Part shown: piece after piece, positions 39 to 4,214 of the stretch | Layout of the letters: the number at the start of each line of letters is the position of its first letter | Numbering within the stretch: position 1 is the stretch's first letter | Origin: Prosthecobacter debontii | Lineage (GTDB): Bacteria > Verrucomicrobiota > Verrucomicrobiia > Verrucomicrobiales > Verrucomicrobiaceae | Assembly (NCBI GenBank): GCA_945869675.1 | Contig: CAMBPS010000005.1 | Location: forward strand, 1 to 64,000 | DNA length: 64,000 nucleotides | Direction of reading: 5' to 3' | Made by a program: the position numbers and the translations under genes | The notes under the pieces: generated by a model | Told to the model about the DNA's origin: nothing | Database searches by the model: none | What the model saw: only the letters and a program-made list of their open reading frames with translations

Positions 39-1058
39 ATGCTTTCCCAACTTGATTCCCTGAAAACCGAGGCCCTCACCGCCCTCGACACCCTGTCTGA
101 TGAAGCCGCCCTGGAGGCTTACCGGGTGGATTATTTGGGTAAAAAGGGCAAGCTTACAGCTTTAAGTGGTGGCATGCGCGAAGTGCCGGCTGACCTCAAA
201 AAGGAAGTCGGAGCCAAGCTCAATGAGGTTCGTGACGCCATCACCAGTGGCCTGACGGTGCGCCTGGAGGCTCTGCAAGCGGCGAAAGATGCCTCGGCCG
301 TGGCAGGTATTGACATCACGCTTCCCGGCAGGCCGGGAGCAGGCGTCGGCTCTCTCCATCCACTGACACAGATCCGTGATCTGGCCGTGCGCACTCTGCG
401 CCGCATGGGCTTCACCTTGGCTGACGGACCTGAGATTGAAACGGAATGGCATTGTTTTGATGCCCTGAACACTCCAACGGATCACCCGGCCCGCAATGAG
501 AGCGACACCTTTTACATGCCTGACGGCAAACTCCTGCGCACTCACACCAGCAGCGTGCAAGTTCGTACCATGGAAAGCGCCAAGACGCTGCCTGTCCGCA
601 TCATTGCTCCTGGAGCAGCCTATCGCCGTGATGAGATCGATGCCACCCACCTGAGTGTTTTTAATCAAATCGAAGCGCTCTATGTCGATACCGACGTCAG
701 TCTGGCCGATCTGAAAGGCACCTTAGAATATTTCTTCCGCGAGGTCTTCGGTCCGACCACAATCGTTCGCTTCCGCCCACATTTCTTTCCTTTCACTGAG
801 CCGAGCTTCGAGATCGACGTGAAGCTGGAAGCCAAGGGCAAAGAAGCCCGCTGGATCGAGATCGCAGGCTGTGGCATGGTCGATCCGGCCGTCTTTGCCG
901 AGATCAGCAACAAGCGTGGAGACAACCTTTTTGATCCTGAAAAAGTCACCGGCTTTGCTTTTGGCATGGGTCTGGACCGCCTGGCCATGATCATGCACGG
1001 CATTTCAGACATCCGTCATTTGATCGAAAACGACGTACGCTTTTTGCAGCAGTTCTGA
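39..1058 (+). CDS. pheS: Phenylalanyl-tRNA synthetase alpha subunit
   Basis: Full-length 339 aa; class II aaRS motifs (HPLTQIRDLAVRTLRRMGF, GMGLDRLAMIMHGISDIR); followed by pheT. Confidence 0.97.
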   Translation: MLSQLDSLKTEALTALDTLSDEAALEAYRVDYLGKKGKLTALSGGMREVPADLKKEVGAKLNEVRDAITSGLTVRLEALQAAKDASAVAGIDITLPGRPGAGVGSLHPLTQIRDLAVRTLRRMGFTLADGPEIETEWHCFDALNTPTDHPARNESDTFYMPDGKLLRTHTSSVQVRTMESAKTLPVRIIAPGAAYRRDEIDATHLSVFNQIEALYVDTDVSLADLKGTLEYFFREVFGPTTIVRFRPHFFPFTEPSFEIDVKLEAKGKEARWIEIAGCGMVDPAVFAEISNKRGDNLFDPEKVTGFAFGMGLDRLAMIMHGISDIRHLIENDVRFLQQF

Positions 1059-1074
1059 GGTCTTAGACACCCCG

Positions 1075-1177
1075 TTTGACAGAATTAACAAGAGAACAGG
1101 AAGATTTAGATTTCAGCTCCTTAAAACTCATTTCTGTTAATCCTGTCCTTCTGTAAATCCTGTAAAAACAGCCCCGA
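1075..1177. repeat. Degenerate inverted-repeat copy (short or empty version of the GxxExxY cassette)
   Basis: Left arm 1075-1101 tttgacagaattaacaagagaacagga resembles the 1261-1300 arm; right arm 1131-1177 tttctgttaatcctgtccttctgtaaatcctgtaaaaacagcccc resembles 1743-1789. Confidence 0.7.
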
Positions 1178-1260
1178 AAACCGCTCTATAAACTCAGCAC
1201 AAATCACGCACTCCTAGCTCACGCCTACACTCAATTTCAGCTTACAGAAAATCGTCAGAT

Positions 1261-1300
1261 TTTTTCACAGGATTAACAAGAGGACAGGATTAACAGAAAC
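1261..1300. repeat. Left inverted-repeat arm flanking the GxxExxY gene
   Basis: tttttcacaggattaacaagaggacaggattaacagaaac; its reverse complement closely matches 1743-1789. Confidence 0.85.
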
Positions 1301-1315
1301 AAGAAGAGTCAGATC

Positions 1316-1735
1316 ATGACCATGCAGGAACTCACCAAAACAGTCATTGATATGGCTATCGAGATTCATCGGACGATGGGACCTGGGTTTAATGAGTCGA
1401 TTTATCATCGTTGTTTGGAAATCGAACTGGCTGCTGCTGGGATTGATTTCGAATCCAAGGTTCCCATTGATGTTTTCTACAAAGGTAAACTGGTTGGCAA
1501 GTTTGAGGCCGACATGATCCTCATGGTCATCGACAAGCGGCTCTTAATCGAACTCAAGTCCTGCGAGGCAATCTCAAAGTCACACGAAGCGCAAACCGTG
1601 AACTATTTAACTGCCACTAATATTGACGACGGTCTCCTCCTCAATTTCGGGGCACCGTCTCTCGAAATCAGGCATAAATACCGTCTCTACACTCCACGAT
1701 CTGTTAAGGATGTTGCTCCCTTCGATCTTCATTAA
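1316..1735 (+). CDS. GxxExxY protein (PD-(D/E)XK nuclease-like family)
   Basis: GFNESIY (GxxExxY) motif and FEADMI...LLIELKS nuclease-like core; 139 aa, flanked by repeat arms. Confidence 0.92.
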   Translation: MTMQELTKTVIDMAIEIHRTMGPGFNESIYHRCLEIELAAAGIDFESKVPIDVFYKGKLVGKFEADMILMVIDKRLLIELKSCEAISKSHEAQTVNYLTATNIDDGLLLNFGAPSLEIRHKYRLYTPRSVKDVAPFDLH

Positions 1736-1742
1736 AAAAAGA

Positions 1743-1789
1743 AAATCCTGTTAATCCTGTCTTCTTGTTAATCCTGTCAAAACAGCCCT
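1743..1789. repeat. Right inverted-repeat arm flanking the GxxExxY gene
   Basis: aaatcctgttaatcctgtcttcttgttaatcctgtcaaaacagccct; inverted relative to 1261-1300, direct relative to 1131-1177. Confidence 0.85.
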
Positions 1790-1811
1790 CAAATTTCGTC
1801 CACCTCCCTTT

Positions 1812-4214
1812 ATGCAAGTCTCCCTCAATTGGCTCCAAACTCACATCGATCTCAGCAGCTACACGACGCCGCAGCTCTCGGATCTGCTCACTTTCGCGGG
1901 TATCGAAGTGGAAGGGATCGAGGTCAAAGGTCTGGCCACAGACAAAGTGATCGTCGCACAGATTCAGTCCTTTGAGCAGCACCCAAATGCAGACAAGCTC
2001 AGCGTTTGTCAGGTCGATGATGGCTCAGGCTCGTTGCGCCAGATTGTCTGTGGGGCTAAAAACTTCAAGACGGGTGACAAGATTCCCTTAGCTCTTCCGG
2101 GAGCCGCACTGCCGGGCGGCTTTGAGATTAAAGAAGGCAAGCTTCGCGGCATCGACTCCAATGGCATGATGTGCAGCGGCAAGGAACTTGGCATTGGCGA
2201 AGACACCGGCGGGCTGTGGATTCTGGATGCCGATCTGCCGATCGGTAAACCGATCAATCAGATTGTCGAATCTGACACACTGCTGGATCTGGAAATCACC
2301 CCAAATCGTTCTGATCTACTCAGCCATCTTGGACTAGCACGTGAACTGGCAGCTTTGACCGGCTTGCCGCTGAAAGGCATACGCGATCACGTCAAAGCAA
2401 GCTCCACCACCCGCACCGCCAAGGCGGATGAGGTCACTCTGGCTGCTACAGATGGCTGCCCCTACTACACGGCCCGAGTCATCAAAGGCGTCAAGGTCGG
2501 TCCAAGCCCGGCTTGGCTGAAATCACGTCTCGAAAGCATCGGCCTGCGCCCAATCAACAACATCGTGGACATCACGAACTACGTGATGATGGAGATGGGA
2601 CAATCTCTGCATGCTTTTGACCTGGATAAACTGAGCGGCGGCATCGTGGTTCGTCGGGCTAATGAGGGCGAAAAAATCCTCGCTCTTAATGGCCAGGAAT
2701 ACGCTCTACTCACGGAAGATCTGATCATCGCCGATCACCAGCGTCCTCTAGCCATTGCTGGGGTCATGGGTGGTGAGACAACGGGTGTCATCGAAGGCAC
2801 TACCAACATCCTTTTAGAAAGCGCTTACTTCACCCCATCCGGCGTGCGCCGCACCTCACGCCGCCTCAGCCTGCATTCGGATTCCAGCTATCGTTTTGAG
2901 CGTGGCATGGATCCAAAACAAGTGCAGGGCGGCTCCGATCTGGCGATCAAGCTCATTTTGGAAATCGCTGGAGGCATTGCAGAACCAGAATTGTGTGTCG
3001 CGGGTGAAGCGCCAACTTTAGTCAGCGCCGTGGAATTGGATGAAGTGCGCACGCATCGCCTGTTAGGCATCCCTACGCTCACGACTGGGGATGCTCATGC
3101 CATTTTAGAGAAGCTGGGGCTCATCAAACAATCGGCCAACGCCGAAAAAAGCCTCTGGACCATTCCGAGCTATCGTCTCGATTTGCATCGCAGCGTGGAC
3201 CTCGTGGAAGAAGTCGCTCGTGTCATCGGTCTGGATCGTGTGCCTTCTAAATTCACCGCCACCTTTGCCTCGGGAGATGCAACGGATCGCCACTACGATC
3301 ACGCCATGCAACTCCGTCAGGCACTGGTGAATCGTGGCTACAATGAAGCTCAAACCTTGCGTTTGATCTCGACACCGCAGATCGAAGATGCTCTAGGCAA
3401 TCCACTGGCTCAAGCAGGGGCTGCCATGCTGAAAAATCCGCTCAGCGAAGATCTCACCGCGCTGCGTCCGAGTCTGATCCCTGGCCTCCTTGCCAGCGCT
3501 GCACTCAATATCCGCCAAGGTGCCTCACGCCTTCGTTTGTTCGAAGTGGGGCGCGTTTTTCTGAAAATGCCAAATGGCATGGTGCGGGAAGAAGAGCGGC
3601 TTGCCATTCTCCTCAGTGGTCCGGTTTCACCCAGCTCATGGCATGGTCGTGTCACCGCAGCTGCGGATGTCTTTGATCTGCGTGGTGTCGTGGAATCACT
3701 TCCAGGCGTTTCAGCTTTAGAAACGAAGGCACTTAAAGACAACGGTACCTTCCTGATGCCTAGCGAACTCAAGATCGGCAATCGCGTGCTTGGTTGGATC
3801 GCCCAGGTGCATCCAGCCCGCGCTCGTCAAATCGATGCACGTCAGCCAGTCTATGTGGTCGAGCTTCTGCTCAGCGCTCTGCGTCAGGGCAGCACGGGTC
3901 CTGCTAAGTTCACGGACCTTCCGCGCTTCCCCGGCATGACTCGAGACGTGGCCTTTGAGCTTCCGGCAGAGGTCTCTCACAGCCAAGTCAGCGCCTTTTT
4001 TGCCAGCCTCAAAGAACCGCTGCTCATCAAGTCCGAACTGTTCGACGTCTTCACCGATCCCACAGGAACCAAGCTGCCCATGGACCGTAAATCCACCGCC
4101 TGGACTTTGACTTACCGGAACTCCGAAAAAACGCTTGAGACAGCCGAAGTCGAAGCCGCCCACGCCCGCATCCTAGCTGCTTTACAAAAAGCGCTGCCTG
4201 TGACGATACGGTGA
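1812..4214 (+). CDS. pheT: Phenylalanyl-tRNA synthetase beta subunit
   Basis: 800 aa; N-terminal tRNA-binding domain (VIVAQIQSFEQHPNADKLSVCQVD), B3/B4 and C-terminal anticodon-binding regions. Confidence 0.97.
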   Translation: MQVSLNWLQTHIDLSSYTTPQLSDLLTFAGIEVEGIEVKGLATDKVIVAQIQSFEQHPNADKLSVCQVDDGSGSLRQIVCGAKNFKTGDKIPLALPGAALPGGFEIKEGKLRGIDSNGMMCSGKELGIGEDTGGLWILDADLPIGKPINQIVESDTLLDLEITPNRSDLLSHLGLARELAALTGLPLKGIRDHVKASSTTRTAKADEVTLAATDGCPYYTARVIKGVKVGPSPAWLKSRLESIGLRPINNIVDITNYVMMEMGQSLHAFDLDKLSGGIVVRRANEGEKILALNGQEYALLTEDLIIADHQRPLAIAGVMGGETTGVIEGTTNILLESAYFTPSGVRRTSRRLSLHSDSSYRFERGMDPKQVQGGSDLAIKLILEIAGGIAEPELCVAGEAPTLVSAVELDEVRTHRLLGIPTLTTGDAHAILEKLGLIKQSANAEKSLWTIPSYRLDLHRSVDLVEEVARVIGLDRVPSKFTATFASGDATDRHYDHAMQLRQALVNRGYNEAQTLRLISTPQIEDALGNPLAQAGAAMLKNPLSEDLTALRPSLIPGLLASAALNIRQGASRLRLFEVGRVFLKMPNGMVREEERLAILLSGPVSPSSWHGRVTAAADVFDLRGVVESLPGVSALETKALKDNGTFLMPSELKIGNRVLGWIAQVHPARARQIDARQPVYVVELLLSALRQGSTGPAKFTDLPRFPGMTRDVAFELPAEVSHSQVSAFFASLKEPLLIKSELFDVFTDPTGTKLPMDRKSTAWTLTYRNSEKTLETAEVEAAHARILAALQKALPVTIR

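Follow-up and report, generated by a model that had tools for sequence, protein, structure and literature searches.

The window analyzed here is a 64-kb stretch of Prosthecobacter debontii DNA in which a GxxExxY nuclease-like gene lies within inverted repeat arms between pheS and pheT (Table 1). The original prediction placed such a cassette at this junction, and the open reading frame, the profile matches, and the arms all bear it out. The arms are an inverted 35-nt pair made of ACAGGATTA units, the arm core has a local score of 60, and a longer inverted pair of 50 nt (1247-1296 and 1748-1797) has a complementarity of 82%. There are 5 copies of TTAATCCTGT in the 64-kb window, compared with a chance expectation of 0.07, and all 5 are inside positions 1137-1777. 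A second inverted pair, which is gene-less and was overlooked in the original prediction, is found just upstream of the cassette (1075-1168). Based on its poor fold as single-stranded DNA, which is barely above that of shuffled sequence (z = -1.1), this element is partly decayed. An Rfam search of window positions 1000-1900 matched no known RNA element. Separately, we observed that the end of another contig (G000:C58:1-111) repeats PheS residues 1 to 37 (100% identity), and therefore contigs C58 and C5 are probably adjacent. If they are, two gene-less hairpins, L016 and L030, would be located upstream of pheS at a distance of ~4.7 kb.

Table 1. Features of the pheS-pheT region in the window
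Feature	Position	Strand	Description
pheS	39..1058	+	Neighbor upstream of cassette
Gene-less element, left arm	1075..1101	-	Site matches cassette left arm of relative L170
Gene-less element, right arm	1131..1168	+	79% identity to cassette right arm over 57 nt
Cassette left arm	1262..1296	-	+ strand reads TTTTCACAGGATTAACAAGAGGACAGGATTAACAG; iteron ACAGGAT
GxxExxY nuclease-like gene (TIGR04256 / PF13366, PDDEXK_3)	1316..1735	+	139 aa, intact ORF
Cassette right arm	1748..1782	+	Inverted copy of left arm; reverse complement TTTTGACAGGATTAACAAGAAGACAGGATTAACAG
pheT	1812..4214	+	Neighbor downstream of cassette

In a profile search, the protein encoded by the cassette scores 126.6 bits against both TIGR04256 (cut-off of 35) and PF13366 (cut-off of 22), and the latter is its sole Pfam match. 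The library entries for the GxxExxY family (TIGR04256 and PF13366) give no more than its name, and our literature search on the family name and the repeat sequence returned no paper on GxxExxY function or repeats, although the TIGR04256 curator text may mention repeats. The active-site residues E27, D66, E79-x-K81, and Q93xxxY97 are all present in the window protein, and its specificity residues (see below) are T7 and N96. Across 201 proteins of the family, E27 is conserved in 200, D66 in all 201, E79 in 195 (the other 6 have D), and K81 in 200, and Q93xxxY97 is also nearly invariant. The AlphaFold2 model of the window protein has a pLDDT of 93.1, and the nearest structures found with Foldseek are Cas4 (4ic1; E = 2e-5), MGME1, archaeal Hjc (E = 5e-4), and AddAB. 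These nearest solved folds have the same E..D..ExK..QxxxY active-site pattern, but their sequence similarity to GxxExxY is negligible. To our knowledge, none of them is paired with a private dispersed iteron. A relationship to T7 endonuclease I by sequence was also considered and is too weak for use (E = 0.63). Based on the modeled fold and the conserved catalytic residues, which agree with the initial description of the protein as PD-(D/E)XK-like, we assign GxxExxY to the predicted PD-(D/E)XK nucleases, and the protein looks like an active one. One other locus (L031; G000:C44:28622-29383) has a single ORF with two fused GxxExxY domains and CCGCAGAG-type hairpins on either side. The second of these domains appears to be dead, because it has neither the catalytic E (GLLRSAY) nor the ExK motif.

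Few plasmid records contain the gene (7 of 72,556), and its phage occurrences are two records of one virus. The latter, Halogranum tailed virus 1 (KC292026.1 / NC_021328.1, 91528-91893), has a distant relative of GxxExxY that is annotated as a PD-(D/E)XK nuclease. A small nuclease gene with an intergenic location and a patchy presence could be an anti-phage defense gene or a toxin gene in a variable cassette, but a PADLOC search with GxxExxY matched no known defense family at an E of 0.1, there is no PHROGs match, and the gene is chromosomal with few plasmid and phage occurrences. A defense function would also leave the matched iterons described below unaccounted for, and we find it scarcely credible.

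GxxExxY genes were found in 69 of the 145 genomes of the phylum that we surveyed, many of which are draft assemblies. Among the 136 loci with both flanks present, 78.7% have inverted arms, for which we required a pair score of 25 or more. Flanks lying another 400 nt outward reach this score in 1.5% of cases, and combining the upstream flank of one locus with the downstream flank of another yields 4.9%. Beyond the phylum, a species-genome scan yielded a multi-phylum set of 80 loci, with titles that include Planctomycetota, Bacteroidota, Chloroflexota, several classes of Proteobacteria, Cyanobacteria, Acidobacteria, Spirochaetota, and archaea of the Methanosarcinales. Arms are present at 60% of the 75 testable loci in this set, compared with 0 of 63 distal controls. 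A further 52 held-out loci, previously unused and taken from the genomes underlying the multi-phylum loci, have arms in 86.5% of cases versus 4.0% for mismatched pairs. Depending on the set, ~13 to 40% of loci have no clear arms by this test. We conclude that the gene is usually bracketed by inverted repeat arrays in many bacterial phyla and in some archaea.

The layout of these loci is constant. Starting from the outside, a T-rich end, in many cases with ACC after it, leads to ~3 iterons and then to the gene, beyond which the same order is inverted. Each iteron has a 7-nt core, and the iterons are direct repeats with a period of 9 to 11 nt within an arm. The iteron word, which we extracted heuristically (~30% of the armed loci were given no word), varies from locus to locus, and the two arms of a single locus agree. 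The other GxxExxY genes of the window genome are without ttaatcctgt, and most of them lie between different inverted iteron arrays (CCGCAGAG, CACAGATTT, AACCGCTAAT, and TAAAAG). The link drawn between this family and aatcctgt-type repeats is therefore a particular instance of a broader pattern, in which ACAGGAT is just one iteron word among many. The GxxExxY proteins within a genome are likewise distinct from one another, with a median identity of 40% and a maximum of 83% in 151 pairs sampled from the whole-genome sets.

The sequence of the arms follows the sequence of the protein. Loci with more similar proteins have more similar arms, with a Mantel r of 0.38 over 149 phylogenetically related loci and an r of 0.34 when only pairs of one phylum-set locus and one multi-phylum-set locus are used. 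Similar arms are seen in 1% of locus pairs at 25 to 30% protein identity and in 64% of those above 60% identity. Two genes of one genome usually have different iteron words (38 of 44 pairs), so the matching of arm and protein is not a genome-wide habit. For iteron base 5, the best protein column is residue 7 (distance-matched triplets 45:6; p = 9e-9), where threonine goes with G5 and serine or alanine goes with A5. Set in advance, this rule gave the right base at 26 of the 27 held-out loci. Independent pairs were also counted on a tree that left out the columns under test; they agree with the rule in 4.9 cases and disagree in 0.0, and the sign test is borderline (median p ~0.06). A second rule, which relates residue 96 to base 7, is correct at 25 of 27 held-out loci, but as an independent contact we rejected it, since on the tree it is a clade effect with very few independent changes. 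A third rule, for residue 123 and base 2, was present in training and failed on the held-out loci. At iteron positions 2, 4, and 7, most changes have no confirmed reader residue. The window protein, with T7, N96, and an iteron ending in GAT, fits the rules for residues 7 and 96. The arm surveys, the covariation, and the held-out residue rule uphold the proposal that the arms and the gene are a unit whose protein is matched to the repeat.

This covariation bears on the possibility that the arms belong to another transposase, a RAYT or a TIRYT, and that GxxExxY is only a passenger. RAYT and TIRYT genes do lie between inverted repeats that also have dispersed copies (PMC3733652), and the genomes surveyed here commonly encode Y1 transposases. 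However, when we inspected the flanks of 23 Y1_Tnp genes in these genomes, they had other repeats, for the most part palindromes rich in GC or repeats of the GGGGTCAG type, and no iteron arrays. The arms, moreover, vary with the GxxExxY protein down to the residue-base rule. Because the inverted repeats that flank Y1 genes differ in sequence from the arms, we rejected a RAYT or TIRYT as the mover, and we consider it very improbable that GxxExxY is Y1 cargo. In two genomes of one genus, we also noted Y1 transposases of ~335 aa (L432 and L433) that are flanked by GGGGTCAGTCCTAT-type inverted repeats.

Iterons matching those of the arms are also present at dispersed places without a gene, where they form short inverted doublets. 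In exact searches of the 145 genomes, CACAGAG double iterons are found in 38 of the 69 genomes with a GxxExxY gene and in 1 of the 76 without (579 versus 5 matches), ACAGGAT double iterons in 29 of 69 versus 6 of 76, and CACGAAA double iterons in 34 of 69 versus 5 of 76. Counts for the reversed patterns are mostly zero, and the Fisher tests on these counts ignore kinship among the 145 genomes. Among gene-bearing genomes, double-iteron matches are more numerous where one of the genes has the matching iteron (p = 7e-5 to 1e-4), and this excess holds after up to four own-arm matches are subtracted (p = 0.03, 0.02, and 0.0002). Gene-less matches reach 175 per genome. Two intact gene-less hairpins fold well as single-stranded DNA (z = -7.6 and -9.5).

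In the window genome, the arm sequence is also present elsewhere, with 33 two-iteron matches at ≤3 mismatches versus 0 for the reversed pattern. Most of these 33 matches sit within a larger repeat of ~250 bp. This element (CCTCCCGACTAACTTGCCCTAGAG...) has ~17 copies in the window genome (L003-L005, L008, L010, L013, L014, L017, L018, L020, and L022-L028) with ACAGGAT arms mid-element, and is composite and MITE-like. Another genome, G142, has 43 ACAGGAT double iterons in gene-less hairpins (L296 and L317-L322), with a conserved loop in several of them. Despite these 43 double iterons, no GxxExxY gene was detected in G142, which is 93% complete, and this genome counts against the explanation favored below.

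The pheS-pheT junction was compared in 23 species of the genus. The cassette is present in 8, gene-less elements or single arms are present in 6, and the junction is short and plain in 9. These six gene-less junctions (L169, L178, L179, L188, L189, and L190) carry several different iterons, most of them unrelated to that of the cassette, which indicates that the junction collects such elements. The closest relative, whose PheS is 96% identical, carries one arm but lacks the gene at this junction. The cassette gene has a median dN/dS of ~0.11 over pairs with unsaturated dS, which is purifying selection. Over seven loci, the two arms of the same locus resemble each other (47.0) more than they resemble the orthologous arms (37.4 and 36.0), and in G150 both arms have switched, to ACAGGAGG/ACAGGAAGG. 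Based on the junction survey, the dN/dS values, and the arm comparison, we conclude that the cassette is old, selected, and often lost, and that its arms co-evolve. The idea of a recent mobile insertion at this site is not supported by these results, since 8 of 23 species have inherited the cassette under purifying selection, with several losses. Neither relatives that all carry the gene at this place without repeats nor an absence of the arms elsewhere in the genome was found, the two outcomes that had been named as counting against the original prediction.

A homing-like selfish endonuclease would account for part of these observations. Such an enzyme would cut gene-free iteron arrays, and repair would then copy the cassette into existing hairpins. 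The nuclease fold, the intact active site, and the sequence match to the repeat are all in keeping with this, as are two loci of one genus (L048 and L056) that align only across the 500-bp cassette, up to and including the arms, with 88% identity and unrelated flanks. This pair suggests, from its alignment, movement of a whole cassette. Some pheS-pheT junctions in the genus are empty, but many hold other elements. In contrast, the GxxExxY copies within a genome are too distinct to be recent spreads of one gene, gene copies are outnumbered by gene-less elements, and purifying selection at a single site throughout a genus would be unusual for a cycling homing gene. Most of the gene-less elements in the six species that have them at pheS-pheT bear other iterons, and there is no sign that the junction is a homing target. 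We therefore regard homing as unlikely.

It is more doubtful still that the arms serve solely as sites to which a protein binds for autoregulation or control of expression, with GxxExxY a domesticated DNA-processing factor and the hairpins host-selected binding or cruciform sites. Vertical inheritance, a dN/dS of ~0.1, and near absence from plasmid and phage records (7 of 72,556 and 2, respectively) would be expected of a host factor of this kind. However, such a role would leave unexplained the inverted copying of the upstream arm downstream of the gene, and would explain neither the large number of gene-less matches in some genomes (up to 175) nor the high between-species turnover at one junction.

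The nearest analogue of the GxxExxY system is REPIN/RAYT (PMC3116915). RAYT transposases are distinct, are present in single copy, and are each tied to their own REP hairpins (PMC3116915). In both systems, the enzyme gene is flanked by its own repeats in inverted orientation, inverted doublets that fold as hairpins are present in many gene-less copies per genome, and distinct single-copy enzymes, each with its own repeat family, are mostly intergenic and vertically kept. In contrast, RAYT is an HUH Y1 tyrosine transposase of the IS200/IS605 group, whereas GxxExxY is a PD-(D/E)XK nuclease by its predicted fold. The repeats differ as well, since REP is a single GTAG-tagged palindrome, whereas the GxxExxY arm is a direct array of 7-nt-core iterons such as CACAGAG or ACAGGAT. 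Because its enzyme is unrelated, GxxExxY fails as a member of REPIN/RAYT, although its working mode appears similar. TIRtrons/TIRYT (PMC3733652) also have an enzyme gene between long inverted repeats and moderately abundant dispersed repeats, but the enzyme is a tyrosine transposase, and the local Y1 repeats are unrelated to iterons. MITEs and homing endonucleases share short inverted-repeat units and a nuclease inside a small cassette, respectively, but GxxExxY is without a DDE transposase and shows no sign of a fixed homing site.

Taking these comparisons together with the surveys, we favor the explanation that GxxExxY and its iterons are a repeat-and-enzyme system like RAYT and REPINs, built on a Cas4/RecB-type PD-(D/E)XK nuclease, and we believe it to be likely, with appreciable room for doubt. 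GxxExxY would be a sequence-specific nuclease dedicated to a private repeat, in which two inverted arms of ~3 direct 7-nt-core iterons each would bracket every gene and the iteron would be read by the GxxExxY protein. The probable substrate would be the arms paired as a hairpin or cruciform, which the protein may cleave. Acting in trans, the enzyme would maintain and spread hairpins that have its iteron and no gene. The gene would remain a single distinct copy with mostly vertical inheritance. The working mode would thus be like that of RAYT transposases and REPINs, with an unrelated enzyme of the Cas4/RecB type.

Short intergenic repeats for which the literature searched gives no enzyme are present in many phyla, and they are now each tied to one nuclease gene. 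It is probable that these common repeats are served by a dedicated enzyme of a previously undescribed type. Their origin becomes an experimental question that could be put with one amino acid change, at residue 7 versus iteron base 5. If our explanation is true, the REP-plus-enzyme lifestyle arose more than once, with a nuclease in place of a transposase, and the family would be a possible source of compact sequence-specific DNA-binding nucleases. The system may even be a new class, in which a stand-alone Cas4/RecB-type nuclease without a transposase uses private iterons and a residue-to-base code and propagates hairpins in bacteria and archaea, a prospect that we rate at slightly less than an even chance. 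If it is, it would explain a large share of the CACAGAG, CGCAAAG, ACAGGAT, and CACGAAA repeats in environmental genomes.
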